Origin: Tetracentron sinense
Taxonomy: Eukaryota > Streptophyta > Magnoliopsida > Trochodendrales > Trochodendraceae
Assembly (NCBI GenBank): GCA_015143295.1
Contig: JABCRI010001343.1
Location: 248,001 to 312,000 of the forward strand
Length of the DNA stretch: 64,000 bases
Direction of reading: 5' to 3'
Of this stretch, positions 20,463 through 64,000 are shown one piece after another (the stretch's first letter is position 1; every line of letters begins with the position of its first letter). Below the pieces are notes generated by a model. The model was not told the origin of the DNA and did no database searches. It saw only the letters and a program-made list of their open reading frames with translations. A program made the translations under genes and the position numbers.

Positions 20463-20693
20463 TCACTGTCCAAAAAAATTAAGGCTAAATTACACTCACC
20501 TCCTCCTAAGTTTGATGAAATTTTAAAAATCTTCTTCTAGTTTCTTGAATTACTTTGTCTTTTCCCATCAAACTCTTAATATTAACATTGTTAACTAAAG
20601 TTACCAGTTTCCTATTTTATCCTTATTACTTGATTGAGAAATGACGTTTTTACCGTTTGAAAGTTCAACCAAAGAAAAACATAAACTCCAAAG

Positions 20694-21500: not shown

Positions 21501-21510
<10 letters not shown>
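20694..21510 (+). repeat. Six-copy tandem array, unit ~137-151 bp
   Basis: Copies of GTCATGTGTCCCCTTTAACA with ACTATGGTTAAGATTCACTC begin near 20699, 20838, 20989, 21125, 21269 and 21419. Each unit also holds the inverted half-motif TGTTTAACCATAGTTAAA, so every monomer contains opposed copies of the fold-back arm. All units have the same orientation. Confidence 0.88.

Positions 21511-21516
<6 letters not shown>

Positions 21517-21551
<35 letters not shown>
21517..21551. repeat. (AT)n microsatellite
   Basis: About 35 bp of AT following a poly(A) run at the end of the tandem array. Confidence 0.9.
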
Positions 21552-23379: not shown

Positions 23380-25308
23380 GGGTTTTTTGTAAAGGACCCC
23401 ATACTTTCAATTATTTGAAAATATCCCTTGTATTTTTATTTTTTATGACTTTGTATTGTGCCCCCAACTAACTTTTACAACTTTTGCAAATCCATAATTC
23501 CATCCATCTCTTTTTATGAAAATGACCTTTCAAACCTCTATTAATGGGTTGGAACAGAACACCGCGTGTCTCATTTATCATCCCTTAATTGGGGTTAAGC
23601 TTAATTGAACCAATGTTAACATTTTTTTTTAAAAAGGGTGGTGCAACGTGCACCCCAACAATTACTAAAACACACCAATCTTAAGTAACCACCAAGTTAA
23701 CACCAAAAAGAAGATAAAAATGACAAAAAAAACTCCTCTTCTTCAACCTTAGTCCTACAAGAAGACTAAAAAGCAACTGCAAGTCATTCCAAGCTTTGCC
23801 AAAATTGTGTTAGATCTTGTCAAATAACATGCCACAAAACATCTTCATAGAGATTTCAAAAATCCGGCAAGAAAACGAGAGTATTCGAGAGAGATTAGAT
23901 GGAAAACAAACCTCTAGGACACTAAATTTTTTTGTTGAACTGATTCTAGATCATTTTTCTTCTTTTTTTGATCTCATCTTTGTATCGTTTGGTTCGTGAT
24001 GGTGACATTCATCAAAAGCCCTATAAAGTCGATCCCCTTGATTTTGTTCTACCTTGTTTCATCTCTCTCTCTCTCTCTGCCCCAGAGTTATCTGCTTTTC
24101 ACGGAGAAATTATGTTATTCATGGAAAAATCACAGTTTGGGGTCAATCTTCCTTGGAGTTCTCTACTGTTCATGGAGAAATCACATGGCTGATCTCTGCT
24201 ATTCATGGAGAAATCAGAGTCTAGACTCTAGGTCAAATAGGACGCATAGGTATGTGGGGGAGCGCATAGCACCACCCAAAAAAAATCTTAAAGATAAAGG
24301 TTAGTTTGATGAACCCTAAAGAGTGAATCTTAACTACAATTTGTGAGTGTTAAAAGGGACACATGACGACTTGTAGAATCTCTTTTAAATGTGGTTAAGC
24401 ATCATCAACCTAAGGTTAATATTTTTTTTTTAATCTAAAATAGAAGGTTAGATGCATGAACCCTAGGGGTGAGTGAATGTTAACCACTGTTAATTGTGTT
24501 AAAAGGGACACGCAGTGGCTTGTAGAGCCCGTTAACTGTAACCAAGCATAATCCTTTAACTATGACTAAACATAATCAACCAAAGGTTAATATTTTTTTT
24601 CTTTTAAAACTAAGGTTAGATGCATGAACCCAAGGGGTGAGTGGGTGTTGAAAATGACATGTGGTGGATTGTAAAGCCTCCTTTAACTGTGGTTAAGCAT
24701 AATCAACCTAAGATTAATATTTTTTTTTTTTAAATGAAAGGTTAGATGCATGAACAATCCTAGGGTTATTAACCATAGTTAGTTGGTGTTGAAAAGGACA
24801 CATGACGGCTTGTAGAATCTCCTTTATTTGTGGTTAAGCATAATCAAACTAAGGTTAATATTTTTTTCTTCTAAAAACCAAGGTTAGATGCATGAACCTT
24901 AGAGGTGAATGAATTGTAACCACAGTTAGTGAGTGTTAAAAGGGACACATGACGGCTTGTAGAGCCCCCCTTTAATGTGGTTAAGCATAATCAACACAAA
25001 GTTAATATACTTTTTTTTCATATAAACCAAGGTTAAATGGATAAATCCTAGGGATGAGTGAATCTTAACCACAATTTGTGGGTTCCAAGCACTTATTTTG
25101 AGAAAAGTTTTTACAAATCTCCTTAAAATCAAAAAGGTTAAAAATGTTATTTCATGTAAAATTTAACATCCGATGTTTAACTTTTTGATGAAATGATGGA
25201 TTTGCAAAAATTTTAAAAGTTAGTAGGGCAATATACAAAATCACAAAACACAGGGGATATTTTACAAATAATTGCAAATATAGGAGTTTTTTAACAAAAA
25301 AAAACCCC
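23380..25308. mobile_element. Fold-back/Mutator-like element (1.93 kb) with tandem array
   Basis: The left end (GGGTTTTTTGTAAAGGACCC, then TTTCAATTATTTGAAAATAT) is matched, inverted, by 25200-25308 (complement GGGGTTTTTTTTTGTTAAAA, then TTGCAATTATTTGTAAAATA). Similarity extends about 110 bp. Flanks are A-rich (AAAAAAATA versus AAAAAATTA), so a 9-bp duplication is plausible but imperfect. Inside are one forward fold-back motif at ~23573-23640, ~650 bp of unique sequence and an array in reverse orientation. No transposase. Confidence 0.72.
24303..25085 (-). repeat. Five- to six-copy tandem array in opposite orientation
   Basis: Copies of AAAGGGACACATGACGGCTTG with GTGAATCTTAACCAC-type motifs occur near 24353, 24504, 24648, 24796 and 24938, a period of about 145 bp. 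It is the reverse complement of the array at 20694-21510. Linkers are T-rich homopolymers. Confidence 0.85.
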
Positions 25309-43646: not shown

Positions 43647-45113
43647 TGTGCGATAGCCGGCCCGGGTCGATCTCCGCCCCACATTAGTATTTTTCGTACC
43701 AATGAAAAGCCAAGATCTCAGAATCGCCACCAATCAAGATTATGGGTGTGATTGGTCACCCACGATAAAAACTCTCAATTCAAGAACCGAGATTGGGTTC
43801 GGGGATTCTCTTATGAGTTGGGGAAAGTGTTAGACACCCCTCCTCATCCTTAAAACGACGGTTACCTTTTAATACTTCTCCATTAATTTAATTAAACGAT
43901 TATTTTCTTTCTTTCTTTCTTATTCTTTTTATTTCAAGATTGGAATTTCACCCCTCCTCGACCGAATCTGGGTGATTTCTTTCTACTTGTTTTTTTTTTA
44001 AATTTCGAGATTGGAATTCTCCCTCCTCGACCTAATCGGGAAGAACTCTCTCTACTTGAGCGGAGAAAGCTCAATTTTCCCTAAATCGGCGATGACCACA
44101 CTCTCTCCTTGACCAATTCGAGAGGGGTCACACCTACTTTGGTGGAAAAGGGAGAAAAAGCTAATTTATTTTAATAACAGAAAAATCGAAGATTCTCTCT
44201 TCCAACTCTTTCTTTCATCCGGATTTCCTTTTCCTCATGACCGTTTAGAGGGAAATTTCTGGACTACTGTGAGAAAGCGAGGGAAGAGAAAACTTGGATG
44301 GGTAGAAGGAGAATGAGATGGGGAATGTAGCATACCTTTTCCTCTGATTATTTGTTCTAAGTATTAAAAAAATCTTCAACGAGATCCAGACTCCCTACAT
44401 GTTTTCCACCAAAGTTGATGAAGATAACCCTAGGTCATCCAAAACCTTCAAAGACTTGGGGAACACTTCAACCTTCTAAAGTTTTCCAAAGTAGGAAGTA
44501 AGGTCTTTTAGGGCTTGATGGCTTGATTTTTTCTGGGTTTTCGAAGGCTCACTCTTTCAGAATTTCGGGGTTTCTCAAAGTTATGGATTTTCAAAATTAA
44601 GAGAAGGGTGGGGGTGAGGCTCCTTTTATAGGTGAAAACTAAGATTCTTCTAATTTCTGGTCAATGTGGGACTAAATGTTTTCGGAAATCCTAGTGAGGT
44701 GGCTCAAGGCGATTGGCCTGGGAAGAATAAAAAATTGGAAAAATTGAGCTTGCGCCCTTTAAAACGGCGAAATTAGAGTTTTCCTCGTTGAGTGCGGTGC
44801 TAAGGTCATCGGCGCATTTAACCACTAATTAAAATTAGGGTTTCCCTAATTGCGCCTTTTCAAAAGGCGCGACATCAATTTTGAACATAAATGGGTTTGC
44901 GCCCTTTTAAAAGGCACTAGGCTTTTTCTCAACGAAAATGAAGGCCCTTCCCTGGGCTTTGGCTAGTTCAGGCTTGGATTGGGCTAGACTTCAAACTCAA
45001 CTTCGACCTTGGATATTAGAGTTCGGATCACATCTTGAGTCTCTTTCAATATTCGGAGTCAATGGGCAATTGGGCCCATGAAATCGCAGGTCATGCAAAA
45101 TAGGGTGTCTACA
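43647..45113 (-). repeat. 3' LTR of the Tat/Ogre-type element, ~1.47 kb
   Basis: Minus-strand start TGTAGACACCCTATTTTGCA and end GGCCGGCTATCGCACA are common limits of Tat-type LTRs. The inner sequence has the phrase GTGTCTAACACTTTCCCC. The left limit is inferred from the TGT...ACA ends, since the partner LTR is not in view. Confidence 0.75.
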
Positions 45114-45129
45114 ACTGTCCCACTTTGCC
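45114..45129 (-). promoter_or_regulatory. Polypurine tract of the Tat element
   Basis: The minus strand reads GGCAAAGTGGGACAGT directly before the LTR start TGTAGACACC, the expected position for the plus-strand primer. Confidence 0.6.
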
Positions 45130-46510
45130 GGATTTGCTTGCAAAGAATGACAAAGAAAAATAGACACAAGCCTATTTTGCATGCAAAAATAAACACTGCA
45201 CTCGAGTTTAAGTTAAACATTTCAAAATTCATTTCATCAAAACCATTTGAAAACCTGGTGGGAAAAATGAAATGGAGATGGGTCCGGCACGTGGGCCTAT
45301 CATGGAACCTCGATCCCCCTCACAAGCTTGATCCGACTTTGCGCTAAGTAGAATGGTAAGAAAGAGATTTTCAAAATAATTTTTCCAAAATTTCTTCTTT
45401 CAATTCTTAACTTAACTACGGGGTGCACAAATTATTTTATTGAACCAAAGTAAGGAATTCAACAGTTTTGGTTATGGGATGAACCATGCCGTTGATTGGT
45501 ATGCATATTAAATTTGAGAAAATCAAACTTAAAGGTTGCTCTATACTCTATAGTGTGACCCCCAACTAGACGATCATTGATTGGCCATAGGTGAGTGAGT
45601 CGATCATGCTTTCCTACTGCAATATTTTTTTTCCTGCGCCTTTAAGAATGGCGAGAAGTCTGTATGACTTCTCCCGCGTCAGGCCCCACTTCCCCTTTTC
45701 TTTTTATTTTCTCTTTCTTTCCTTCCTCATTCTCTTCGGTGGTCCCTACGGCAACTTGATCCCCCCTTTGAGACTTCATCTTCTCCGGTCAAAGCTCCGG
45801 TGGACCTTCCATTTTTCCGGCGATCTTCTCCGGCGAAATCTCCATTTCGAGTGTTTGGGGTCGTTTTGGTGATTCTAGGGCATCCAAAAATCCCTCTTTG
45901 AGATTCCTTCTCGCGGCCCCAGTTCTTTGAGTGGCATTCTTCTTCTTCATTGCCTTTGCTTGGATTGGAGGTAAGCCACATGACATTCCTCTCTTTTTAT
46001 TGCCTAGGGTTGGAAAGTTGCCCTCTTTGATGTGTAAACCCTCTGAAGATTTCGAATTCATGATTTTCGTTGTCCCCCCCTTTTTTTTCTTGAATTCACA
46101 TGTATCACTACAAATCCCTACTAAACAGCTCCCTCTAAAAATTCATGCTCTGATGACAACCAAATTAACTCTTGCTTTGTCGCTTTAATCATGACTCTTG
46201 TTCTCCCCTAAGCACTTCTTCCTTGAATGTCCATTTAATCTGAAGACAGTCGTGATCCTTTTGAAATACCCTTATGTATGCATCCGTGGCCATATGTATT
46301 CCTGCATGTAATGAAAATGTCCTTTGTTAGTTTATGCAGTATGTAATCTCAAAGCATCACAAGTTTGAGAACCATACCTGTTGAACTTATTTGTTATTCT
46401 GATTTCCTATTCATCATGTTCTTAATTGGAAATGAATGTTGGAACATCGCATTTCGAGTTTCAGCAAAATAACAAATGTTGGTATAATTGTATTCCTCCT
46501 TAATGTATAT

Positions 46511-48773
46511 ATGGGTAGGTCTAAGAAAGCTAAGACAGGGGAGTCTTCTTTGGCACCTTCAGCAGCCGATACGACCTCTGATCCTCATATGGAGATTGAG
46601 GAAGAGCCTAGAGTGACCTCGCAAATGGGTGCGAACTCGAGCGGGATCGGGGCTACTTCTTCAAAAGGTAGGAAGAAGAAGCCAACCTTTAGTTCTCTGC
46701 CCGTGGTGCCAAAAGTTCCTGACACACCACTATTGAAAGACTTGGGGAACCATATTTCGGCAATTTGCCGGACTCGAGGTAAAATTCAAAATTTGTCAAA
46801 GTTAGTATTCACCCTTGCTTGCTTGCATGTGATTAGGCCTTACCTTTTCCTTTTTTTTTTTTTCCAGAAATCCCCTATCACGGGTTGGAGATGTTCATGG
46901 AAGCCTGTTCTCACACTTTATCAGAAGGCGTCTCCTTCTTTGAAGAACACACTAGGAAGGACATCACTTGGTCCTTTTTTGACTATCTCTCGTATTCAGA
47001 GTGATCGAAGATTAGTTGCTGCTCTCTGTGAGAGGTGGTTTGGGGAGACCAACATGTTTCATTTTCCGTGCTGTGAATTGGCTATCACTCCTCTTGACTT
47101 TGTTATGCTGACGGGGATCCCGATTGTCGGTGAGGTATTACCTCCCCTCTCTGCCATTACCATGGATCAAGCTGCTTGCTTGATGGGGGTCTTGCCAGAG
47201 TCCATTGAGGCAGATAATGCATGGGAAGCAAGCAAAGTGAAGCTCTCTTGGCTGGCCGGTCTCCTGGATAATACGGACATTGTTGCCATCGACATCAATT
47301 CTCTCATCTTCACCAGTGTGTTTCGGAACTTCCTCCTGTACGTCTTGGGTGCCTGCTTTTTCATGACTAATCGTTCATGCGTGGATCCCAGCTTCTTATC
47401 CCTGATAGATCTTATTGATCGCTTCGATACCTTCGATTGGGGAGGAGCCATATATGCCAGCATTTTGGTTGGACTCCGTCGAGTCTCCTGTTGGGAAGGT
47501 CGATTGGTCCACTTCTTTTATCATTTTCTTGAGGTAACCCATTTGTTTCTTTTCTTTTGCATTGGTTCATTGCTTACTCCTAACTCATAGCTCGTTTCAG
47601 ATCTAGGCGCACGAGTATCTGGATCCTTTCTGTCCGAGCTTGAGGGCCCCGGACATTACCTCATTTCCACGGTCATCTCGGTGGAAAGCACCCTCTTCTA
47701 AAGTCGACAGTCATCTTCTAGAGAAAGCTAGAGAGGAATTGGATTGACCGACTTTGAGAAGGGTAAGTCTATATCTTGCTGTTGATGACAGTTGACTCTT
47801 GTCCTCTTCAATTAATCTCGCCCGACACTTCGGATGCAGGTGACTCTTCGGCCATATATCGAGCTTGGTGACATGATCCTGCTCTTTTGTAGGGAGGCAA
47901 GGCGGTTCATGGGTCGACGCGTGACCTTCTCTTATTTTGGGGACTGCGAGTATTTTCTGGGGGAACGAGTTCTTCATCAGAGTGATGGAGAATTTCGGAT
48001 TCCACTTTCTCCTCCTCTTGAGATGACGCCTACCTGGACCCGTGACGCTTTCATGGAGCAGCTGCGTACAGCGGGTATTGTTGTTCCTCATTTGGTCGGC
48101 GACCTTGTTAGCCACTCTTTTTACCTGTCTTGGCTTTGGAGTGTGTCCATTGGCCCTATCATGCGCCCTTTTTCTGCCTGACCTAGGGCCACAGAGGTTG
48201 GGGGTAAACTGATTGAGAAGTACTTTCAGATGGTGAGCTTTCTTTTAGCTAAGTACCTCTTGCCTTTTGTTTCCAATCTTGTTATCTTGACTTTGTTCTT
48301 TCTGTGCAGTGGCCGCTACTTGCTATCCTGGAGGAGGATACCCGAGGACTGACTGAAGAAATTGTGTGTTCCCTTTTTGTTCCCTTGAAATGAGAGCTAC
48401 AATTTTGTGGACCCATTTTATTCTCTTTCTTCATCACTTTTGAGAAATCGAATTGCGACCTTTGAGGATCCCGTAGTCACTCTTGAGGAAGTTCCTCCTT
48501 ATCAGGTAAATATGTCTCTCTAGTTGACTTTGATTTTCTACATCACTCTTGCTTGATACTTCCTTTGGTTTTGCAGTGTCGGTCTCGTCCGGATACGAAT
48601 TTTGACTTTGAAGATGGTCCTGCGCAGGTGAAATAATTTAATGAAAATGCTTTATAAATGGATTAGTCGCTCTAATGAAGAGATATGGTTTACTCCCTGT
48701 ATTTCTTTTGGTAGGATGATGAAGAGGACTATCGAGTGTTGAGCATACGTGGCTTGGAGCTCGAGCCCGCTAG
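46511..48773 (+). pseudogene. Antisense plant mobile domain (PMD) gene, copy A
   Basis: Starts MGRSKKAKTGESSLAPSAAD with a basic, serine-rich N-terminus. Likely exons are 46511-46778, 46868-47533, ~47602-47762, ~47840-48233 and shorter ones to a TAG at 48771. The core reads LVAALCERWFG, FHFPCCELAITPLDFVMLTG, IPIVGEVLPP, then LLYVLGACFFM and RFDTFDWGGAIYASI. This is the plant mobile domain (PF10536, aminotransferase-like) pattern, shared by transposons and the host proteins MAIN/MAIL1. In-frame TAG and TGA occur in the third exon (both copies), and further indels break this copy. Function within the element is unknown. It runs antisense to pol. Confidence 0.75.
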
Positions 48774-49253
48774 AGTAGATCAAGAATTTCCCCTTTTTGA
48801 TTTGATTTCCCTTTTGTAAAAGTTACTGTAATGTAAACATTAATACATTAATTAGAAATTATTTACATTTAGAATCTTTGGAGGATGGGAATAGTAGTGG
48901 TTTTGGTGTTTAATTTTGGATGAGATGTGAATGAGAAACTTCCTTGGAACAGGTACCCGAACAGGCAAGTGCAGCAGCTCGTGCAGTTGCGCGTTTTAAG
49001 CAAACAGAAGTTACTGTTTTCGGCCAGGTTTACTATTCGCGCCGTTTTAAACGGCAAGATGCAGTTTCCCTTGATTTTTTTTTATGTCGTGCTGTTTTAA
49101 AAGGTGCAAATTGCTGCGATTTTTCTATAAATCCTTCGAACAGACAACAATTCCGAAATCAGTCTTCTCTGCACAAAAACTTCCTACTCCGAAACCAGTT
49201 ATCCAAAAGCTTTGAAACTTGGTTCCTAGACACTTTCTACCTCTCCGGATGCC

Positions 49254-50823
49254 ATGGAACCATCTATTCGTGCAACCGACAATTCGGCCTTTTCCTTCCC
49301 AACCTTGCCTAACTTGGAGAATCACCAACTCTACGATCGAAAATTGAAACAATGGTGGATTCCTTGGATTCATCCAAGCAAGAGGCTTCGAGAACTTGAA
49401 GTTGTTCTCGAAGTTAGGTACTGTAGCATCTCTTTTCCGCGTCAAAATCAATGGTCACCTTGTGGAAGCTGCTTTGGGGTGTTGGAGCCTGGAATTCCAT
49501 GTTTTCAAACTTGGAGTTTTCGAACTTAGTCCAACCTTGGAAGAATATGGGAGGTTGATGTCCGTCCCCTTTGATCAAGATAGAATTGTCATTCCCTTTC
49601 ACCGGGCTAGATGGAAAAGTAAGGCAACTTCTTTTCTTGGGGTGACGCAGGGCTTCCTCAAGAAATTGGATGGTGAAGAAAACTACTACCGGTGCTCTTT
49701 GAAGTTTTTGGTAGACAACTTCTCCCCAAAGAACCCCAGTTGGATAGTACTTCATCATTCATGGTCTTCCGGGTTCTTGGCCTCAATATTATTTCCGTGC
49801 CTTGGCTCTGGCAGTTGTAGGGCATGTGTTATTTCCTCTGAGTTTCAATTTCATTGACATGCAAGTGGTGGAGGTAGTCGAGCAGATAATGAATGGACAT
49901 TCCTTCATCCCCATGTTACTTGCTGAGACCTTTAGACCTTAGACCGATGTGTCCAGAAAAGAGGTAAGTATGGCTTTTGGAGCATCTTAAGTTCAACAAC
50001 CCTCTCACTACTCCCGCTTTTATGTGCCAAGACTTGATCAAGTCGCATTGTGCTTTTAGTGAACATCCCTTCTTATCTAGATAGTCCAGAGATGTGGTAT
50101 GATCAGCTTGTCTTGTTGGTTCCGGACATGCTAGTGTGAAAGTGCTCTTGGCTTCACGTCGTAGAGATCCATTTCAGGGGCATCCGGCAAACATCACCTT
50201 GTTCTAATTGGTCTCCGAGGTTCCAGCCATTATATACCAAATTGGATAGTACGACAATTTGGTCGCACCCAAGACTTCCTATCATTGAGGCCATAAAGGA
50301 TGTGGTCGAGTTTGGGTCTTCATCTGAGAAGCTTATCTCTCGCCTTCTTGCCGGCTGGAAATCAAGAATGAAGAGGCTTTTGGTCATGACTATAAGAATC
50401 ACTTGCTCAGGGGAGTATATCAGATGGCTTGCCGATTGTTGTTCCCCTTATGTTTCTCCTCTGCATCCCTGCGTAGGTGAGAAAAGAAAAGAGCCAATGA
50501 ATGTTTTGCTTACTGAGGACTAGCCATCTTATAAAGAGTTAGAAGAAAGGATCACTTCCCTTCTTGTGGAGAATGAGGGCTTGAAAACAGAGGTTGCCAA
50601 AATGGGAGTGAGGCTGCCGCGTATCAGGATCGTATTAAGGACTTGAAAGCTTAAGTTGATATTCTGGAAGCTGTGAATGAAGAATTTCAATATTTCCAGA
50701 ATCTCATTAGTGGGAAAAAGTCCAACCGGTCAGGAGGTGATCCTTAAGTTGAACGAGGAGCTGACTCGTCTTTGACAGAAGTTGAAGGATCATCAAGGTG
50801 AAGTCTCCTCGGAGTCGGATTAA
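49254..50823 (+). pseudogene. Antisense DUF7745-like gene, copy A
   Basis: Starts MEPSIRATDNSAFSFPTLPN. The recognisable core is ALGCWSLEFHVFKLGVFELS, then PTLEEYGRLMSVPF, the pattern I associate with DUF7745 proteins encoded near plant Tat elements. A coiled-coil tail follows (YKELEERITSLLVENEGLKT). The frame is broken by a base change near 49376 and several single-base indels; at 50391 this copy keeps the frame (HDYKNHLLRG) where copy B has lost bases. Domain name from memory, moderately sure. Confidence 0.6.
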
Positions 50824-51879
50824 AGCTTCAGGACCTGCCTTAGAGTTTATAGGAACTTCTAAAGAAAGTATTGTTTTTCATATTTATGGGTCTCAAAATT
50901 CTGTTTAAGTAATAAAGGAATTGTTCTTTAAGAATTCTCTGTCATCGACCAAAAATACTAGTTTTATTATTTATTTTATTTTATTTTTTTATATCATGCA
51001 TAAGAAAAGAAAAAGAACAACCTAGAATTTTTTTTTCATAATGGGGTCGCACTTGGGAAGGTTGGTTGCCTACGTATCCCTTAAGAGGGGAATCAACCGG
51101 CCTAGTTCGGATAACAGCAAGCACACATTTTTTTTTTCAAACCTTTAAAGAAGATGGATTAGAAGATATATATGTTGAACTTTTATGACCCATCATTTTT
51201 AATGGTCTCCAAACTAACACAGAATTACCTTGTGCAACTTCTCCATGAATACCTTGAATTATCTCAAGTAATTGCACGTAAGAGCCCGTTCACCCTGATT
51301 TGGACCATGATCACGCCGAGCTTTGAGAATGCCTACTGCTTGTGTTGACTCCCGGCTGAAACGAAGCAGACACCTTTTTGTTTTTCGCCTCTTTTATCCT
51401 TAGTGCCTGTTATGGTTTTCACCGAGTCTGGCCCACGTAATTTTTGCACATAGGCGCCCCGAGGGGTTTTCACCAAGCCTCTGGCAATTGATTCTTATCA
51501 TGGTATGATGTTTTTACTCACAACGCCCTTTCGGGTTTTCATTGTGCCCTTTCATACCACGCTTTTTTTTTATGATCTCTCAAGCAATCCTGCCCATCCT
51601 TGTCGGTAAGAAGAAATCATGCATAATTCAAATCTTAGTACTTATAACTGTCACTAGTTGGAGAGGACTTAGTAGTAGGACGAAACATGGGCTATGGTTG
51701 GGGTCTTTGAAACAAAGGGATAAGGCTCAAAATTTTCGCACATATTAGGATCAGGTATGACATTTGCTTGCTTTGGGGGTCCTTCTTGGTCTTTGCTCCA
51801 TTCCATCTCTTTTCAGTTTGGGTTATTCGATTTTCCTTTGCTCCCCCCCCTTTGTTTTTGAGAGGATAAAAAACTGCCC

Positions 51880-52020
51880 CAGTGTAAGAGCACTGGGGTG
51901 ACATGAATCTTTGAATTGAATAAAATTGCCCCAGTATAAGAAGGTTGGATGTCTTGACTTCTCGGAAAAGATGCGATTAATTTAACTTTTCTTCTAAAAA
52001 AAAATGCCCCAGTATGGAGT
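51880..52020 (-). repeat. Threefold CACTGGGGCA-type repeats in the Tat 3' region, copy A
   Basis: On the minus strand three spaced copies of an ATACTGGGGCA/ACACTGGGGCA word, each followed by a T-rich run, occur between the end of integrase and the antisense genes. An equivalent set lies at about 60660-60820. Confidence 0.7.
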
Positions 52021-52158
52021 GCAACCAATGTCATTGTCGAGTGAAGAGAATTTTCAGGCTCAAAGGGCTAAGCAAAAGGATAACTGGAAAATTATCATGA
52101 TTATAGCGAAGGAGGCCTCTCTTCGTTTTAATTCTAGCCATGTTCCTACAGAGTTGAG

Positions 52159-54208
52159 TTATGCATAATACCTTTTGATTGAATCAGAATTGACCGGCTT
52201 AGGAAGATCATCTTCATCTATCTCTCTGCCAATATGAGGGCTCCTCTAGAAAGTGCTTTTCTGACCACGTATGGACCATTATAGTTAGGCTTGAATTTCT
52301 CTCGCGCATCAGTCTGGTGTGGCAACATCTTTTTAAGCACTAAATCACCTTCTTTGAATTCCCGCGGTCAAACTTTCTTTGAATAGGCTCGGGCCATGGC
52401 ATATAACATTATTCTTTTTTCTTCAATCAAATTAAGTTGGTCGAACTGAGCCAATAACCATTCAGCTTTTTCGAGCTCAACTTCCATGAGTACTCTGAGT
52501 GATGGAATTTCAACTTCAATTGGCAAGATAGCCTCCATACCATAAACTAATGAAAAAGGGGTTGCCCCTACTAAGGTTCAAATTGAGGATCTATATGCAT
52601 GGAGTGCAAATGGTAACATTTCATGCCAATCTTTTTAAGTAACGGCCATCTTCTCAATAATCCGCTTCAAGTTCTTGATGGCTGCTTCAACCGCTCCATT
52701 CATTTGAGGACGGTAGGGAGATGAGTTGTGGTGAGTGATCTTGAATTGCTCACATAATGCCATCATTTGTTTGTTCTTAAAATTTTTGGCATTGTCAGTA
52801 ATGTTCTGACTGGGAACTCCATATCTGCAAACGATGTCATTCTTTATAAATTTTATTACCTGGTTCTTCGTCACACTGGTATAGGAAGCTGCTTCTACAC
52901 ACTTTGTGAAATAGTCGATGGCGACTAGTATGAACCTATTCCTATTTGACGCCTTCGGATTTATCGGCCCAATAACATCTAGGCCCCACAGGGAGAAAGG
53001 CCAAGGAGTTGTCATGTTGTGGAGCTCTGAGACCGGGGCATGTATTTTGTTGACATAAATCTGACATAGGTGACATTTTCTCACATGTTCGTTGCAGTCA
53101 CGCTCCATGGTTGTCCAGTAATAGCCTAATCTCAAGATCTTCTTGGTTAACATGTGACCGTTCATGTGTGGGCCGCATATCCCTTCATGGACATCTTCAA
53201 CGACCTTCTCTAATTCTTTCAAGTCCACACATCGAAGGAGTATATGGTTGAAAGTCTTTTTGTAGAGATTCCCTGCATTAAAAAAGAATTGCCCAGCTAA
53301 TCTTTGACTGGTTCATCGATCATTGGTATTGGCATCGAGTGGGAACGTACGATCTTCTAGATATTGCTTTATGTTATGGTACCAAGGCCTTCCGTTGGGC
53401 TCACCTTCTACAACTTCTTTGATTGGCATGCAATGGACTTGGTTCATCCCTAACCTCAATCTCAATTGGCCGGATGTCGACCCCTTCAGGAATGTCGATG
53501 ATTGAGTCCAGGGTGGCTAAGGCATCTGTGAATCGATTCTCCGTTCTCAGGCAAATGCGTGAATGTAATGTGCTCAAATTATCACTGATGTCGTCTAAGT
53601 ACTCATGGTAAGGAATCAACTTAGTGTCCTGTGTTTGCCAATCACCTGTAGCCTGAAATATAATGAGTAGAGTCTCCGAAGACATCCACTATTTTAATGT
53701 TCAAATCCACAGCTGCTTGTAGTCTAATGATGTAAGCTTCGTATTCGGCAACATTGTTTGTGCACTCGAATTTCATCTTTACCGCAACAGGAATTTGTTT
53801 ACCCTCGGGAGAAACCAGAACTGCACCCGCTCCATATCCATGCTTGTTTCCGCTCCATCAAAATACATTTTCCAATTAGCCTTTGATTCTTCTACTTCAC
53901 CGGTCATGAACAAGATGACTTCATCTGGCAACATTGTTTGTGCACTCGAATTTCATCTTTACCGCAACAAGAATTTGTTTACCCTCGGGAGAAACTAGAA
54001 TTGCACCCACTCCATATCCATGCTTGTTTGCCGCTCCATCAAAACACATTTTCCAATTTGCCTTTGATTCTTCTTCTACTTCACCGGTCATGAACAGGAT
54101 GACTTCATCTGGAAAGTTGGTTTTCATTGGTTCATAGCCTGGTAGTGGATGATCTGCCAAGTGGTCTGCAATGGCTTGCCCTTTGATCGCCTTCTGGGTC
54201 ATGTAAGT
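52159..54208 (-). pseudogene. Tat pol fragment, copy A (integrase and half of archaeal RNase H)
   Basis: Minus-strand order is aRNase H (FDGAANKHGYGVGAILVSPE, to the copy boundary at 54208) and integrase 53228-52635. Integrase shows the HHCC zinc finger (GHMLTKKILRLGYYW, CHLC) and the catalytic D (WGLDVIGPI), D (ITDNAKNF) and E (NGAVEAAIKNL). A TAA at 52635 interrupts at the phrase VT*KDWH. Homology then continues through a TGA (RSSI*T) to the end at 52159 (KRYYA). The reverse transcriptase is absent because the duplication breakpoint falls inside RNase H. Confidence 0.85.
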
Positions 54209-55316
54209 AATTCTTAACTTAACTACGGGGTGCACAAATTATTTTATTGAACCAAAGTAAGGAATTCAACAGTTTGGTTATGGGATGAACCATGCCGTTG
54301 ATTGGTATGCATATTAAATTTGAGAAAATCAAACTTAAAGGTTGCTCTATACTCTATAGTGTGACCCCCAACTAGACGATCATTGATTGGCCATAGGTGA
54401 GTGAGTCGATCATGCTTTCCTACTGCAATATTTTTTTTCCTGCGCCTTTAAGAATGGCGAGAAGTCTGTATGACTTCTCCCGCGTCAGGCCCCACTTCCC
54501 CTTTTCTTTTTATTTTCTCTTTCTTTCCTTCCTCATTCTCTTCGGTGGTCCCTACGGCAACTTGATCCCCCCTTTGAGACTTCATCTTCTCCGGTCAAAG
54601 CTCCGGTGGACCTTCCATTTTTCCGGCGATCTTCTCCGGCGAAATCTCCATTTCGAGTGTTTGGGGTCGTTTTGGTGATTCTAGGGCATCCAAAAATCCC
54701 TCTTTGAGATTCCTTCTCGCGGCCCCAGTTCTTTGAGTGGCATTCTTCTTCTTCATTGCCTTTGCTTGGATTGGAGGTAAGCCACATGACATTCCTCTCT
54801 TTTTATTGCCTAGGGTTGGAAAGTTGCCCTCTTTGATGTGTAACCCTCTGAAGATTTCGAATTCATGATTTTCGTTGTCCCCCCCTTTTTTTTCTTGAAT
54901 TCACATGTATCACTACAAATCCCTACTAAACAGCTCCCTCTAAAAATTCATGCTCTGATGACAACCAAATTAACTCTTGCTTTGTCGCTTTAATCATGAC
55001 TCTTGTTCTCCCCTAAGCACTTCTTCCTTGAATGTCCATTTAATCTGAAGACAGTCGTGATCCTTTTGAAATACCCTTATGTATGCATCCGTGGCCATAT
55101 GTATTCCTGCATGTAATGAAAATGTCCTTTGTTAGTTTATGCAGTATGTAATCTCAAAGCATCACAAGTTTGAGAACCATACCTGTTGAACTTATTTGTT
55201 ATTCTGATTTCCTATTCATCATGTTCTTAATTGGAAATGAATGTTTGGAACATCGCATTTCGAGTTTCAGCAAAATAACAAATGTTGGTATAATTGTATT
55301 CCTCCTTAATGTATAT

Positions 55317-57563
55317 ATGGGTAGGTCTAAGAAAGCTAAGACAGGGGAGTCTTCTTTGGCACCTTCAGCAGCCGATACGACCTCTGATCCTCATATGGAG
55401 ATTGAGGAAGAGCCTAGAGTGACCTCGCAAATGGGTGCGAACTCGAGCGGGATCGGGGCTACTTCTTCAAAAGGTAGGAAGAAGAAGCCAACCTTTAGTT
55501 CTCTGCCCGTGGTGCCAAAAGTTCCTGACACACCACTAGTGCAAGATTGGGGAACCATATTTACGGCAATTTGCCGGACTCGAGGTAAAATTCAAAATTT
55601 GTCAAAGTTAGTATTCAACCTGCTGCTTGCATGTGATTAGGCCTTACCTTTTCCTTTTTTTTTTTTTTTCCAGAAATCCCTATCAGGGTTGGAGATGTTC
55701 ATGGAAGCCTGTCTCAACCTTTATCAGAAGCGTCTCCTTCTTTGAAGGACACACTAGGAAGACATCACTGGTCCTTTTTTGACTATCCCTCGTATCAGAG
55801 TGATCGAAGATTAGTTGCTGCTCTCTGTGAGAGGTGGTTTGGGAGACCAACATGTTTCATTTCGTGCTGTGAATTGGCGATCAATCCTCTTGACTTGTTA
55901 TGCTGACGGGGATCCCGATTGTCGGTGAGGTATTACCTCCCCTCTCTGCCATTACCATGGATCAAGCTGCTTGCTTGATGGGGGTCTTGCCAGAGTCCAT
56001 TGAGGCAGATAATGCATGGGAAGCAAGCAAAGTGAAGCTCTCTTGGCTGGCCGGTCTCCTGGATAATACGGACATTGTTGCCATCGACATCAATTCTCTC
56101 ATCTTCACCAGTGTGTTTCGGAACTTCCTCCTGTACGTCTTGGGTGCTTGCTTTTTCATGACTAATCGTTCATGCGTGGATCCCAGCTTCTTATCCCTGA
56201 TAGATCTTATTGATCGCTTCGATACCTTCGATTGGGGAGGAGCCATATATGCCAGCATTTGGTTGGACTCCGTCGAGTCTCCTGTTGGAAGGTCGATTGG
56301 TCCACTTCTTTATCATTTTCTTGAGGTAACCCATTTGTTTCTTTTCTTTTGCATTAGTTCATTGCTTACTCCTAACTCATAGCTCGTTTCAGATCTAGGC
56401 GCACGAGTATCTGGATCCTTTCTGTCCGAGCTTGAGGGCCCCGGACATTACCTCGTTTCCACGGTCATCTCGGTGGAAAGCACCCTCTTCTAAAGTCGAC
56501 AGTCATCTTCTAGAGAAAGCTAGAGAGGAATTGGATTGACCGACTTTGAGAAGGGTAAGTCTATATCTTGCTGTTGATGACAGTTGACTCTTGTCCTCTT
56601 CAATTAATCTCGCCCGACACTTCGGATGCAGGTGACTCTTCGGCCATATATCGAGCTTGGTGACATGATCCTGCTCTTTTGTAGGAGGCAAGGCGGTTCA
56701 TGGGTCGACGCGTGACCTTCTCTTATTTTGGGGACTGCGAGTATTTTCTAGGGGAACGAGTCTTCATCAGAGTGATGGAGAATTTCGGATTCCACTTTCT
56801 CCTCCTCTTGAGATGACGCCTACCTGGACCCGTGACGCTTTCATGGAGCAGCTGCGTACAGCGGGTATTGTTGTTCCTCATTTGGTCGGCGACCTTGTTA
56901 GCCACTCTTTTTACCTGTCTTGGCTTTGGAGTGTGTCCATTGGCCCTATCATGCGCCCTTTTTCTGCCTGACCTAGGGCCACAGAGGTTGGGGGTAACTG
57001 ATTGAGAAGTACTTTCAGATGGTGAGCTTTCTTTTAGCTAAGTACCTCTTGCCTTTTGTTTCCAATCTTGTTATCTGACTTTGTTCTTTCTGTGCAGTGG
57101 CCGCTACTTGCTATCCTGGAGGAGGATACCCGAGGACTGACTGAAGAAATTGTTGTGTTCCCTTTTTGTTCCCTTGAAATGAGAGCTACAATTTTGTGGA
57201 CCCCTTTTATTCTCTTTCTTCATCACTTTTGAGAAATCGAATTGCGACCTTTGAGGATCCCGTAGTCACTCTTGAGGAAGTTCCTCCTTATCAGGTAAAT
57301 ATGTCTCTCTAGTTGACTTTGATTTTCTACATCACTCTTGCTTGATACTTCCTTTGGTTTTGCAGTGTCGGTCTCGTCCGGATACGAATTTTGACTTTGA
57401 AGATGGTCCTGCGCAGGTGAAATAATTTAATGAAAATGCTTTATAAATGGATTAGTCGCTCTAATGAAGAGATATGGTTTACTCCCTGTATTTCTTTTGG
57501 TAGGATGATGAAGAGGACTATCGAGTTGTTGAGCATACGTGGCTTGGAGCTCGAGCCCGCTAG
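55317..57563 (+). pseudogene. Antisense plant mobile domain (PMD) gene, copy B
   Basis: Same gene as copy A. Likely exons are 55317-55584, 55674-56325, 56393-~56553, ~56632-57018 and short 3' exons. The segment from 55900 to 56325 is open (MLTGIPIVGEVLPPL to GPLLYHFLEV), and here IWLDSVESPVGRSIGPLLYH is in frame where copy A is shifted. Lesions differ from copy A upstream (55680-55900), but the TAG (56396) and TGA (about 56538) in the third exon are shared. The next exon (VTLRPYIELGDMILLF) and the tail DDEEDYRVVEHTWLGARAR with a TAG follow PMD layout. Confidence 0.78.
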
Positions 57564-58041
57564 AGTAGATCAAGAATTTCCCCTTTTTGATTTTGATTTC
57601 CCTTTTGTAAAAGTTACTGTAATGTAAACATTAATACATTAATTAGAAATTATTTACATTTAGAATCTTTGGAGGATGGGAATAGTAGTGGTTTTGGTGT
57701 TTAATTTTGGATGAGATGTGAATGAGAAACTTCCTTGGAACAGGTACCCGAACAGGCAAGTGCAGCAGCTCGTGCAGTTGCGCGTTTTAAGCAAACAGAA
57801 GTTACTGTTTTCGGCCAGGTTACTATTCGCGCCGTTTTAAACGGCACGATGCAGTTTCCCTTGATTTTTTTTATGTCGAGCTGTTTTAAAAGGTGCAAAT
57901 TGCTGCGATTTTTCTATAAATCCTTCGAACAGACAACAATTCCGAAATCAGTCTTCTCTGCACAAAAACTTCCTACTCCGAAACCAGTTATCCAAAAGCT
58001 TTGAACTTGGTTCCTAGACACTTTCTACCTCTCCGGATGCC

Positions 58042-59614
58042 ATGGAACCATCTATTCGTGCAACCGACAATTCGGCCTTTTCCTTCCCAACCTTGCCTAA
58101 CTTGGAGAATCACCAACTCTACGATCGAAAATTGAAACGATGGTTGGATTCCTTGGATTCATCCAAGCAAGAGGCTTTCGAGAACTTGAAGTTGTTCTCG
58201 AAGTTAGGTACTGTAGCATCTCTTTTCCGCGTCAAAATCAATGGTCACCTTGTGGAAGCTGCTTTGGGGTGTTGGAGCCTGGAATTCCATGTTTTCAAAC
58301 TTGGAGTTTTCGAACTTAGTCCAACCTTGGAAGAATATGGGAGGTTGATGTCCGTCCCCTTTGATCAAGATAGAATTGTCATTCCCTTTCACCGGGCTAG
58401 ATGGAAAAGTAAGGCAACTTCTTTTCTTGGGGTGAAGCAGGGCTTCCTCAAGAAATTGGATGGTGAAGAAAACTACTACCGGTGCTCTTTGAAGTTTTTG
58501 GTAGACAACTTCTCCCCAAAGAACCCCAGTTGGATTAGTACTTCATCATTCATGGGTCTTCCGGGTTCTTGGCCTCAATATCATTTCCGTGCCTTGGCTC
58601 TGGCAGTTGTAGGGCATGTGTTATTTCCTCTGAGTTTCAATTTCATTGACATGCAAGTGGTGGAGGTAGTCGAGCAGATAATGAATGGACATTCCTTCAT
58701 CCCCATGTTACTTGCTGAGACCTTTAGGACCTTAGACCGATGTGTCCAGAAAAGAGGTAAGTATGGCTTTTGGAGCATCTTAAGTTCAGCAACCCTCTCA
58801 CTACTCCCGCTTTTATGTGCCAAGACTTGATCAAGTCGCATTGTGCTTTTAGTGAAATCCCTTCTTATCTAGATAGTCCAGAGATGTGGTATGATCAGCT
58901 TGTCTTGTTGGTTCCGGACATGTTAGTGTGGAAGTGCTCTTGGCTTCACGTCGTAGAGATCCTTTCAGGGGCATCCGGCAAACATCACCTTGTTCTAATT
59001 GGTCTCCGAGGTTCCAGCCATTATATACCAAATTGGATAGTACGACAATTTGGTCGCACCCAAGACTTTCCTATCATTGAGGCCATAAAGGATGTGGTCG
59101 AGTTTGGGTCTTCATCTGAGAAGCTTATCTCTCGCCTTCTTGCCGGCTGGAAATCAAGAATGAAGAATGCTTTTGGTCATGACTAGGAATCACTTGCTCA
59201 GGGGAGTATATCAGATGGCTTGCCGATTGTTGTTCCCCTTATGTTTCTCCTCTGCATCCCTGCGTAGGTGAGAAAAGAAAAGAGCCAATGAATGTTTTGC
59301 TTACTGAGGACTAGCCATCTTATAAAGAGTTAGAAGAAAGGATCACTTCCCTTCTTGTGGAGAATGAGGGCTTGAAAACAGAGGTTGCCAAAATGGGGAG
59401 TGAGGCTGCCGCGTATCAGGATCGTATTAAGGACTTGAAAGCTTAAGTTGATATTCTGGAAGCTGTGAATGAAGAATTTCAATATTTCCAGAATCTCATT
59501 AGTGGGAAAAAGTCCACCGGTTAGGAGGTGATCCTTAAGTTGAACGAGGAGCTGACTCGTCTTTGACAGAAGTTGAAGGATCATCAAGGTGAAGTCTCCT
59601 CGGAGTCGGATTAA
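58042..59614 (+). pseudogene. Antisense DUF7745-like gene, copy B
   Basis: The better preserved copy: 262 open residues from MEPSIRATDNSAFSFPTLPN, including LKRWLDSLDSSKQEAFENLK, ALGCWSLEFHVFKLGVFELS, PTLEEYGRLMSVPFDQDRIV and FSPKNPSWISTSSFMGLPGS. A one-base shift near 58775 moves the frame to EHLKFSNPLTTPAFMCQDLI, which stays open to about 59186. A coiled-coil tail with two stops follows, ending at 59614. No catalytic motif is visible; the role is unknown. Confidence 0.62.
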
Positions 59615-60957
59615 AGCTTCAGGACCTGCCTTAGAGTTTTATAGTAACTTCTAAAGAAAGTATTGTTTTTCATATTTATGGGTCTCAAAATTCTGTTTTA
59701 AGTAATAAAGGAATTGTTCTTTAAGAATTCTCGTCATCGACCAAAAATACTAGTTTTATTTATTTATTTTTATTTTTATTTTTTATATCATGCAATAAGA
59801 AAAGAAAAAGAACAACCTAGAATTTTTTTTCATTAATGGGGTCGCACTTGGGAAGGTTGGTTGCCTACGTATCCCTTAAGAGGGGAATCAGACCGGCATA
59901 GTTCGGATAACATGCAAGCACACATTTTTTTTTTCAAACCTTTAAAGAAGATGGATTAGAAGATATATATGTTGAACTTTTATGACCCATCATTTTTAAT
60001 GGTCTCCAAACTAACACAGAATTACCTTGTGCAACTTCTCCATGAATACCTTGAATTATCTCAAGTAATTGCACGTAAGAGCCCGTTCACCCTGATTTGG
60101 ACCATGATCACGCCAAGCTTTGAGAATGCCTACTGCTTGTGTTGACTCCCGGCTGAAACGAAGCAGACACCTTTTTGTTTTTCGCCTCTTTTATCCTTAG
60201 TGCCTGTTATGGTTTTCACCGAGTCTGGCCCACGTAATTTTTGCACATAGGCGCCCCGAGGGGTTTTCACCAAGCCTCTGGCAATTGATTCTTATCATGG
60301 TATGATGTTTTTACTCACAACGCCCTTTCGGGTTTTCATTGTGCCCTTTCATACCACGCTTTTTTTTTATGATCTCTCAAGCAATCCTGCCCATCCTTGT
60401 CGGTAAGAAGAAATCATGCATAATTCAAATCTTAGTACTTATAACTGTCACTAGTTGGAGAGGACTTAGTAGTAGGACGAAACATGGGCTATGGTTGGGG
60501 TCTTTGAAACAAAGGGATAAGGCTCAAAATTTTCGCACATATTAGGATCAGGTATGACATTTGCTTGCTTTGGGGGTCCTTCTTGGTCTTTGCTCCATTC
60601 CATCTCTTTTCAGTTTGGGTTATTCGATTTTCCTTTGCTCCCCCCCCTTTGTTTTTGAGAGGATAAAAAAACTGCCCCAGTGTAAGAGCACTGGGGTGAC
60701 ATGAATCTTTGAATTGAATAAAATTGCCCCAGTATAAGAAGGTTGGATGTCTTGACTTCTCGGAAAAGATGCGATTAATTTAACTTTTCTTCTAAAAAAA
60801 AATGCCCCAGTATGGAGTGCAACCAATGTCATTGTCGAGTGAAGAGAATTTTCAGGCTCAAAGGGCTAAGCAAAAGGATAACTGGAAAAATTATCATGAT
60901 TATAGCGAAGGAGGCCTCTCTTCCTTTTAATTCTAGCCATGTTCCTACAGAGTTGAG

Positions 60958-63900
60958 TTATGCATAATACCTTTTGATTGAATCAGAATTGACCGGCTTA
61001 GGAAGATCATCTTCATCTATCTCTCTGCCAATATGAGGGCTCCTCTAGAAAGTGCTTTTCTGACCACGTATGGACCATTATAGTTAGGCTTGAATTTCTC
61101 TCGCGCATCAGTCTGGTGTGGCAACATCTTTTTAAGCACTAAATCACCTTCTTTGAATTCCCGCGGTCAAACTTTCTTTGAATAGGCTCGGGCCATGGCA
61201 TATAACATTTATTCTTTTTTCTTCAATCAAATTAAGTTGGTCGAACTGAGCCAATAACCATTCAGCTTTTTCGAGCTCAGCTTCCATGAGTACTCTGAGT
61301 GATGGAATTTCAACTTCAATTGGCAAGATAGCCTCCATACCATAAACTAATGAAAAAGGGGTTGCCCCTACTAAGGTTCAAATTGAGGATCTATATGCAT
61401 GGAGTGCAAATGGTAACATTTCATGCCAATCTTTTTAAGTAACGGCCATCTTCTCAATAATCCGCTTCAAGTTCTTGATGGCTGCTTCAACCGCTCCATT
61501 CATTTGAGGACGGTAGGGAGATGAGTTGTGGTGAGTGATCTTGAATTGCTCACATAATGCCATCATTTGTTTGTTCTTAAAATTTTTGGCATTGTCAGTA
61601 ATGTTCTGACTGGGAACTCCATATCTGCAAACGATGTCATTCTTTATAAATTTTATTACCTGGTTCTTCGTCACACTGGTATAGGAAGCTGCTTCTACAC
61701 ACTTTGTGAAATAGTCGATGGCGACTAGTATGAACCTATTCCTATTTGACGCCTTCGGATTTATCGGCCCAATAACATCTAGGCCCCACAGGGAGAAAGG
61801 CCAAGGAGTTGTCATGTTGTGGAGCTCTGAGACCGGGGCATGTATTTTGTTGACATAAATCTGACATAGGTGACATTTTCTCACATGTTCGTTGCAGTCA
61901 CGCTCCATGGTTGTCCAGTAATAGCCTAATCTCAAGATCTTCTTGGTTAACATGTGACCGTTCATGTGTGGGCCGCATATCCCTTCATGGACATCTTCAA
62001 CGACCTTCTCTAATTCTTTCAAGTCCACACATCGAAGGAGTATATGGTTGAAAGTCTTTTTGTAGAGATTCCCTGCATTAAAAAAGAATTGCCCAGCTAA
62101 TCTTTGACTGGTTCATCGATCATTGGTATTGGCATCGAGTGGGAACGTACGATCTTCTAGATATTGCTTTATGTTATGGTACCAAGGCCTTCCGTTGGGC
62201 TCACCTTCTACAACTTCTTTGATTGGCATGCAATGGACTTGGTTCATCCCTAACCTCAATCTCAATTGGCCGGATGTCGACCCCTTCAGGAATGTCGATG
62301 ATTGAGTCCAGGGTGGCTAAGGCATCTGTGAATCGATTCTCCATTCTCGGCAAATGCGTGAATGTAATGTGCTCGAAATTATCACTGATGTCGTCTAAGT
62401 ACTCATGGTAAGGAATCAACTTAGTGTCCTGTGTTTGCCAATCACCTGTAGCCTGAAATATAATGAGTAGAGTCTCCGAAGACATCCACTATTTTAATGT
62501 TCAAATCCACAGCTGCTTGTAGTCTAATGATGTAAGCTTCGTATTCGGCAACATTGTTTGTGCACTCGAATTTCATCTTTACCGCAACAGGAATTTGTTT
62601 ACCCTCGGGAGAAACCAGAACTGCACCCGCTCCATATCCATGCTTGTTTACCGCTCCATCAAAATACATTTTCCAATTAGCCTTTGATTCTTCTACTTCA
62701 CCGGTCATGAACAAGATGACTTCATCTGGCAACATTGTTTGTGCACTCGAATTTCATCTTTACCGCAACAAGAATTTGTTTACCCTCGGGAGAAACTAGA
62801 ATTGCACCCACTCCATATCCATGCTTGTTTGCCGCTCCATCAAAACACATTTTCCAATTTGCCTTTGATTCTTCTTCTACTTCACCGGTCATGAACAGGA
62901 TGACTTCATCTGGAAAGTTGGTTTTCATTGGTTCATAGCCTGGTAGTGGATGATCTGCCAAGTGGTCTGCAATGGCTTGCCCTTTGATCGCCTTCTGGGT
63001 CATGTAAGTAATATCAAACTCAGAGGGAAGCATTTGCCATTGCGTCGTCCGTCCTATGAGTGCTGGCTTCTCGAAAAGGTACTTGAAAGGGTTCATCCGA
63101 GCTATCATCATAGTTGAGTGGCTCAACATGTAGTGTCTTAGGCGTTGCGAGGCCCAGACCAATGCACAACAAGTCTTTTCAAATGTTTGAGTACCTTGTC
63201 TCATAATCAGTGAACTTCTTGCTAAGATAGTAAATAGCTCTCATTCCTTCCAGTTTCATCATGTTGCCCTAAGACACATTCCATAGAGTTTTCAGAAATT
63301 GATAGGTACATTAGTAGAGGCCGGCCAGGTGTAGGTGGTACCAACACAGGTGGATTAAGTAGATAGCTCTTGATCTTATCAAAGGCTTGTTAGCATTCTT
63401 CGTTCCATTCTTTAGGTTGATTCTTCCTGAGAAGCTTGAAGATTGATTCACAAATAGGGGACAGTTGGGATATGAACCTACTGATGTATTGCAGTCTTCC
63501 TAGAAAGCCACGTACTTCCTTTTATGATTTCAGAGCTGCCATTTCGATTATCGCTTTTGCCTTTGCCGGATCCACTTCTATCCCCCTCTTCAGTTGACAA
63601 TGAAACCAAGCAATTTAACCGAAGATACCCCGAACACACATTTTGCAGGATTCAACCGTAATTGAAATTTCCTCAACTGCTCAAATAATTTCCTTAAATT
63701 GATAAGGTGATCTTCCTTCGGTGACTTGATGATCATATCGTCAACATATACCTCGATTTCTTTATGAATCATGTCGTGAAACAAGGTAGTCATTGCACGT
63801 TGATAAGTAGTTCCATCATTCTTGAGTCTGAATGACATCACCTTGTAGCAAAAGGTGCCCCAGGAGTTATGAAAGCAGTCTTCTCCCTATCTTCTTTAGC

Positions 63901-64000
63901 CATTTTTATCTGATTGTATCCCAAAAAACCATCCATGAAGGAGATTGTTTCGTGGCGTATAGTGTTGTCAACGAGTATGTCGATGTGAGGGAGGGGGAAA
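60958..64000 (-). pseudogene. Tat pol, copy B with upstream RNase H and reverse transcriptase
   Basis: From the right edge: reverse transcriptase (PHIDILVDNTIRHETISFMD, YVDDM active site intact, LNPAKCVFGV). It has a one-base deletion near 63865 and a stop near 63590. Then RNase H (FEKTCCALVWASQRLRHYML), archaeal-type RNase H with a duplicated first half (62554-62915), and integrase 62028-61435 with intact D, D, E positions. Homology ends at 60958. The shared TAA and TGA in integrase show that these lesions predate the duplication. Confidence 0.88.
62554..62915 (-). repeat. 181-bp out-of-frame tandem duplication in the archaeal RNase H
   Basis: The segment coding PDEVILFMTGEVEE through MKFECTNNVA occurs twice head to tail, 181 bp apart and therefore out of frame. 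The copies differ (NWKMCFDGAANKHGYGVGAI versus NWKMYFDGAVNKHGYGAGAV). The same structure is in copy A at about 53748-54110, so it predates the 8.8-kb duplication. Confidence 0.85.

Follow-up and report, generated by a model that had tools for sequence, protein, structure and literature searches.

Why should a retrotransposon carry two genes on the strand opposite to its pol, and what could they do for it? The question is raised by a 64,000-nucleotide stretch of Tetracentron sinense DNA (C601:248001-312000, hereafter the window), in which the minus strand of positions 45114-64000 is the 3' half of a Ty3 retrotransposon according to the profile matches of window stretches. All searches were run in one genome of 1.16 Gb in 1479 contigs. 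Between the integrase and the 3' long terminal repeat (LTR), with pol on the minus strand, the plus strand carries two genes, one for a plant mobile domain (PMD) protein and one of DUF7745 type. An earlier note had read this arrangement from the same DNA. As a matter of anatomy, it is nearly certain that a Tat-type Ty3 element here carries an antisense accessory unit of two genes, placed between its integrase and its 3' LTR. The identities that the earlier note gave to the two genes held. PF10536 (PMD) scored 65.5 bits on plus-strand positions 46508-47587 and 75.2 bits on the relative L042 (cut-off 34.9), and PF24924 (DUF7745) scored 54.1 bits on plus-strand positions 58018-58827 (cut-off 26). 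The span holds the unit not once, as had been supposed, but twice, with both copies decayed, and the first DUF7745 copy stays below the cut-off at 24.0 bits.

The class of the element was read from a relative. The long open frame of L018 (544-3333) has the order reverse transcriptase (RT), RT_RNaseH, RVT_3 (an additional RNase H) and integrase; the profile scan of the decayed window copy has no such resolution. The order RT, RNase H, second RNase H, integrase is also that of Ogre and Retand in the available text of Neumann 2019 (PMC6317226). Because a further RNase H stands between the RNase H and the integrase of L018, the element was assigned to the Tat clade of Ty3. The PMD extra open reading frame (ORF) of the Ogre lineage was found too, as a PMD gene between integrase and 3' LTR on the reverse strand, in keeping with the Tat/Ogre label of the earlier note. 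The antisense Transposase_28 domain of Retand (PF04195) gave no match among ten scanned window stretches and ten relatives, covering a subset of their ORFs.

The PMD gene is spliced. Eight exons were mapped in L019, separated by seven introns that measure 74-98 bases and have GT-AG borders. Alignment to L019 placed the first window copy at 46511..48730 on the plus strand, with exons at 46511-46778, 46868-47533, 47601-47762, 47840-48232, 48310-48363, 48434-48505, 48577-48627 and 48715-48730, and the second copy at 55317..57519 on the same strand; each is interrupted by three in-frame stops. Across seven diverged copies, the splice GT was preserved in 45 of 45 cases and the splice AG in 40 of 45, compared with 42 of 125 and 42 of 81 for the other intronic GT and AG of the same copies. 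Exon lengths were compared in six diverged rows, excluding the C12 allele. Exons 2, 3 and 5-8 kept their length or changed it by whole triplets in every one of the six rows, exon 4 did so in five and exon 1 in three, and intron lengths varied irrespective of triplets. A GTAAG donor upstream of the ATG was preserved in five aligned copies. All seven exons tested (the 16-base last exon was left out) were open in three of the eight copies for which both genes were fetched; in two copies, not every exon could be judged. A programmed +1 frameshift in exon 2 was considered and rejected, as in relatives a single frame runs through the mapped exons. A sequence search of the PMD against solved structures gave no match. 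The PMD gene is evidently an eight-exon spliced antisense gene with conserved splice sites.

The earlier note had described both genes as spliced, which is right for the PMD gene and wrong for DUF7745 in the window's own family (family 1), where DUF7745 is a single frame; an intron occurs only in family 2. By tblastn with an open relative, the first window copy was placed at 49254..50820 (plus strand, frame broken) and the second at 58042..59611 (plus strand, first open stretch to 58827). The relative L013 has an open frame of 529 amino acids from the ATG, and its protein scored 98.8 bits with PF24924 and 73.7 bits with PF10536, both above cut-off; the broken window stretch reached only 21.1 bits with PF10536 (cut-off 34.9). 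The frame was stop-free in six of the eight copies just mentioned. The profile comparison of DUF7745 with PMD gave a probability of 98.1% (E 1.2e-13). Since intact DUF7745 scores as PMD and the profiles match, the two genes are, judging from their sequences, members of one superfamily, DUF7745 being a diverged PMD relative. The pairing pointed out in the earlier note is thus one of relatives and not of unrelated partners. Against solved structures, DUF7745 gave six weak matches (E 0.27-0.94), all to the C-terminal part, which bears a weak resemblance to a coiled coil.

The introns point to how the pair arose. In family 2 (L049 and L050), DUF7745 has an intron between LLQ and IWLLEHL. The two PMDs have a matching intron at FLE|MWAHEYL and LLE|LWAREYL, the site being placed by alignment in the DUF7745-PMD profile comparison. 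A further PMD gene type, L004, reads LLQ, intron, CWAYERL at the corresponding position. The borders of PMD exons 2 and 3 in family 2 equal those of family 1, at identities of 29-48% for PMD pieces and 40-54% for DUF7745 pieces. Because both genes have this common intron position in family 2, the ancestor was most simply an intron-bearing PMD gene whose duplication gave birth to the pair. At the LLQ-W site, the intron is missing from the sense copies L017, L022 and L023, as is expected if sense introns vanish through the RNA stage. The family-1 DUF7745 also lacks this intron despite its antisense orientation. Separately, L004-L008 were seen to be a near-identical multi-copy PMD gene, with a common intron position in L004, L005 and L008.

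Are both genes kept in relatives, and under purifying selection, as the earlier note suggested asking? Both proved to be so. From the genome lists, 142 of 2896 DUF7745 candidates and 113 of 423 PMD candidates were scored, and pair counts are lower bounds. The 144 and 118 listed matches were merged into 121 and 90 places, omitting second pieces of the same copies. Among the matches listed, at least 59 of the 78 DUF7745 places at ≥70% identity (including both window copies and the C12 locus described below) had a PMD upstream on the same strand, with a gap of 1.6-2.0 kb in 49 of the 59 pairs; a PMD was upstream in at least 11 of 27 places in the mid-distance group (39-60% identity) and in 0 of 16 in the third group (30-36%). 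The remaining 19 of the 78 close places, some with long open DUF7745 frames, had no listed PMD, and 20 of the 90 PMD places had no listed DUF7745 partner. The ratio of nonsynonymous to synonymous divergence (dN/dS), in pairs with synonymous divergence (dS) ≥0.2, was 0.08-0.27 for DUF7745 and 0.09-0.31, mostly 0.11-0.20, for PMD. Wrong frames and the opposite strand of the PMD gave 0.66-1.93. Stop or gap codons were excluded, and broken copies were used as aligned pieces in differing frames. Very close pairs gave erratic values of 0 to 1.43, and pairs inside the decayed window locus gave 0.60-0.72 with few changes. These ratios indicate that both genes are under purifying selection in relatives.

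A pattern search revealed palindromes beside these genes. Three palindromes of the form GCGCC-N-TTT-N-AAA-N-GGCGC lie in the LTR at 44752, 44852 and 44899 (44752..44917). A pair lies upstream of each DUF7745 copy: at 49039 and 49089 (49039..49107; 2 and 3 mismatches) for the first, and at 57829 and 57878 (57829..57896; 1 and 3 mismatches) for the second. A weaker one with 3 mismatches lies upstream of the PMD (45636..45654), its repeat copy being at 54442. At ≤3 mismatches, the 19-base palindrome occurs in the window only at these LTR, PMD-upstream and DUF7745-upstream sites, and none of 125 stretches of 350 bases in window positions 1-44000 contains it. Of 15 loci, 14 had the pair (≤3 mismatches) within the 350 nucleotides upstream of DUF7745, L037 being the exception, with a spacing of 48-49 bases and a position 154-219 bases before the ATG. 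All ten LTR stretches long enough to judge had one to three palindromes (≤3 mismatches); L024 has one with three mismatches, and the L040 stretch is only 48 bases long. Under a stricter hairpin rule, an LTR-side palindrome was found in two of the six loci L024-L029, compared with one or two in all six at ≤3 mismatches.

In family 2, a second palindrome, TGTC-N-GTAAT-NNN-ATTAC-N-GACA, occupies both the LTR and the DUF7745-upstream place, and the family-1 palindrome is absent at ≤4 mismatches. The putative LTR of L059, taken for one because it precedes the conserved post-LTR sequence, has eight second-class palindromes (≤5 mismatches), and five of the seven steps between them are exactly 48 bases. 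L049 has four upstream of DUF7745, two of them with five mismatches. Mononucleotide shuffles of the family-2 stretches gave 0 to 0.8 per stretch. Exact matches in the genome numbered 524 for the family-1 pattern and 1791 for the second, much of which reflects LTR copy number, and 0 for the reversed patterns. In three LTR-like copies with five sites each (≤4 mismatches), the arms were 85-93% alike, a likeness partly built in by the arms being the search criterion, the centres 30-33% and the flanks 38%. Since centres and flanks differ between sites, the palindromes are clearly not recent tandem copies. A generic scan found recurring palindromes also in unrelated window parts and in L051 and L052, and recurrence alone is not special. 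The argument rests on recurrence, the two common places and family specificity together.

The unit is doubled in the window by an 8.8 kb tandem repeat. Its copies, 45402..54211 and 54209..63012, are 98.9% identical, with 33 mismatches and 59 gap openings, and the antisense module is therefore present twice in the span 45114-64000. The same locus is found with a single unit at C12:41660420-41669249; the window flank 41500-42400 matches C12 with 100% identity, at an offset equal to within one base. Over the first 6.2 kb, copy 1 is closer to C12 in its left part, and indels are fewer in the right part of copy 2. The repeat junction occurs only once among the matches listed, on C601, and the unit is single at the C12 locus. 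The doubling is therefore probably an assembly artefact, namely two overlapping contig ends left unmerged; it may alternatively be a real haplotype difference. On the same two grounds, a true tandem duplication as part of the element's biology is disfavoured. C601 is possibly a haplotig of the C12 region at 41.66 Mb.

The remaining parts of the element lie on the minus strand. Integrase, with zinc-binding and core domains (PF17921 and PF00665), is at 52638..53312 and, in the same frame, at 61438..62112; the RNase H region of pol is at 62725..63240 (PF17917, 36.2 bits) and an RT fragment at 63593..63886 (PF00078, 51.4 bits). Part of the 3' LTR, its U3 side, is at 44500..45113. The LTR edge at about 45114, the LTR start reading minus, agrees with the boundary given in the earlier note, since five genome places match the window only to query 614-616, which is 45113-45115. 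No second occurrence of the window 3' LTR was found in C601:312001-328800, and no 5' LTR was seen in L051 and L052. Between integrase and DUF7745, at 51877-52020 and 60675-60820, there are several copies containing CCCCAGT, one of them palindromic: CCCCAGTG...CACTGGGG. Tandem repeat arrays lie at window positions 16493-17176, 20685-21520 and 24286-25083, the last two mutually inverted.

Other elements in the genome carry PMD-type genes differently. L017, L022 and L023, from a separate PF24924 list outside the third group of 16, have a PMD/DUF7745-type frame in a third arrangement. This frame precedes gag in L017 and L023, in the sense orientation, like the ORF1 of Ogre. The L023 protein scored 97.2 bits with PF10536 and 85.1 bits with PF24924, and no separate PMD match was found in the 10 kb examined for L022 and L023 (family 3). 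Repeated palindromes in L022 suggest that its frame lies between two LTRs. L020 and L021 belong to a further Ty3 family with the PMD in one frame antisense to integrase; neither palindrome class was found in the 10 kb examined per locus, and in L020, a frame of 402 amino acids with a PEARLI-4 match (32.1 bits) follows the PMD. At least 119 PMD matches exist in the genome, many single-frame and of the L020/L021 PMD length, and these may possibly be one family. L061 (C1:51999000-52008900) and L062 (C1:17894800-17904700) are LTR-like repeats about 1.4 kb long; short stretches of them resemble the family-3 LTR, and each has five second-class palindromes at similar offsets.

What might the unit do? 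Antisense introns would survive reverse transcription because they lie opposite the genomic RNA, in which they remain unspliced. Both proteins would be made from the element's own antisense promoters, and a 2020 review, in its available text, mentions an antisense promoter for gene23 of the plant element Grande and calls for study of antisense and spliced transcripts (PMC7264820). The site of action would be the nucleus, where the two proteins might work as a pair like MAIN and MAIL1. One of them, or a partner, would bind the palindromes and so set LTR activity and its own level; the most simple purpose of such control would be relief of host silencing, as in VANC. The palindromes common to the LTR and the DUF7745-upstream region make silencing interference or self-regulation, both raised in the earlier note, more plausible. 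An antisense PMD/DUF7745 unit with palindrome-acting control is our best explanation as a whole, tentatively held and with somewhat less than an even chance of being right. By analogy, its functional part, a module for self-regulation or anti-silencing, is possible and on balance improbable by itself. The fullest version, a retrotransposon-coded and sequence-specific control or anti-silencing system in which duplicated PMD relatives act on palindromic arrays replaced between families, is doubtful.

Several results speak against palindrome-acting control. Many of the 15 palindrome loci are close copies of one another, and all comparisons were made within one genome. The family-1 palindrome class recurs in family 3 (L022, L023), whose protein shares only 25-26% identity with that of L013; family 2 has a closer protein (46-51% by exon) and yet a different class. 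Since the family-3 pol is 64% identical to the L018 pol over 435 residues, it may be kinship of pol or LTR, rather than DUF7745, that the palindrome class tracks. In L061-L063, which bear the second palindrome, queries with PMD, DUF7745, pol and gag gave no match. For DUF7745, the AlphaFold model was a failed prediction, with a mean predicted local distance difference test (pLDDT) of 41.4 and a predicted template modelling score (pTM) of 0.31. In distant PMD pairs, introns diverge by 0.30-0.55 (up to 0.64) compared with dS of 0.8-1.3, which is not fully explained; loss of methylated CpG in GC-rich exons could be a cause.

The palindromes may instead be sites of a host factor or elements of RNA or DNA structure, such as hairpins or dimer signals, while the genes serve, for example, nuclear entry or the choice of insertion site. 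Such a role would suit the LTRs of families 1 and 3, which have the same palindrome class with unlike spacers, and the LTR-like repeats that have the second class and no PMD/DUF7745 genes. It accounts less well for the sites that 14 of 15 loci have immediately before DUF7745, for a palindrome sequence that differs between families 1 and 2, and for the central three bases and flanks that vary between sites of one copy, and we regard it as rather unlikely. The proteins could also mimic host MAIN and MAIL1 and disturb the MAIN-MAIL1-PP7L silencing complex without binding element DNA, leaving the palindromes to another factor. According to the accessible part of PMC7156037, the PMD proteins MAIN and MAIL1 bind one another as well as PP7L and take part in the silencing of transposable elements (TEs), and two related PMD-type genes are paired in the element. 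The family-specific palindromes at two places would then need a separate cause, and we find mimicry unlikely, more so than a host factor or structure.

A different possibility is that the antisense unit matters as RNA, with double-stranded RNA (dsRNA) damping the element and the coding being incidental. The review text available (PMC7264820) considers a role of antisense ORFs through protein as well as through dsRNA, and phased small interfering RNAs from PMD genes in tea are described in an excerpt of PMC10673657. Codon-level selection and splice-site conservation tell against it, and a purely RNA role is very improbable. Lastly, a host gene pair or another element could have been inserted by chance into one copy and have no role, as the decay of the window copies might suggest. 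The recurrence of the pair in tens of places and in family 2 (29-54% identity by piece), the equal exon borders in family 2 where checked, and the dN/dS values leave this hardly any likelihood. Palindrome-acting control by the PMD/DUF7745 unit, within the bounds stated above, is the explanation we carry forward.

Part of this anatomy is already known. In the portions of the papers available to us, PMD frames are described in Ogre and antisense ORFs in Retand. The share of Ogre elements with a PMD extra ORF is reported as 57% (PMC6317226), Gypsy PMD clades A1 and A2 with PMDs encoded only by Gypsy elements are described by Ikeda 2017 (PMC5418596), and PMDs are found in Gypsy consensuses of ten species (PMC9289625). 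Ikeda 2017, in the same portions, calls the function of the domain still to be determined. The literature search, within the text returned, found no description of a conserved spliced antisense PMD pair or of the common intron, and it found none of DUF7745. As far as this search shows, the conserved pair, the splicing of the PMD and the common intron may be new. One paper states in its title that insertion of LTR elements is often directed at palindromes. The spliced antisense gene suggests a route for retroelement introns through the RNA stage, and ORF-length screens would miss such genes. The PMD domain ties the transposon silencing by MAIN and MAIL1 to transposons themselves, and a selected PMD pair beside candidate DNA targets makes the role of element-borne PMDs testable by binding and reporter assays.

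How does the unit compare with known systems? Ogre elements resemble it as Ty3 Tat elements with a PMD extra ORF, and the accessible text of the Ogre report (PMC6317226) mentions no second PMD relative, no introns in the extra gene and no common palindromes; as given there, the survey took only ORFs of at least 250 codons and would overlook the majority of exons in a spliced gene. Retand TRP28 elements, in the passages available from Vicient 2025 (PMC11963269), have antisense ORFs between pol and the 3' LTR that are thought to be regulatory, but their domain is Transposase_28 and not PMD/DUF7745, and those passages do not describe splicing. MAIN, MAIL1 and PP7L, in the available text of Nicolau 2020 (PMC7156037), are alike in that two PMD relatives act jointly on TE silencing; they are host genes that silence TEs, whereas the genes here are borne by the element.

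The last comparison is with VANC of VANDAL elements. VANDALs are DNA transposons, and DUF1985 is the VANC domain. DUF1985 gave no Pfam match (E ≤0.01) in the L013 protein and nine others. The text of Hosaka 2017 (PMC5735166) nowhere speaks of palindromes. In the parts available of Hosaka 2017 and Sasaki 2023 (PMC10398659), VANC proteins bind short motifs that are arrayed in the same element and differ between families, and the likeness is thus a TE-coded gene together with non-coding motif arrays that differ between families. Such arrays are present here by sequence, except that family 3 has the family-1 class. If the proposed control is true, the unit would be an LTR-element counterpart of VANC, and the palindromes would be a DNA target for the PMD domain.

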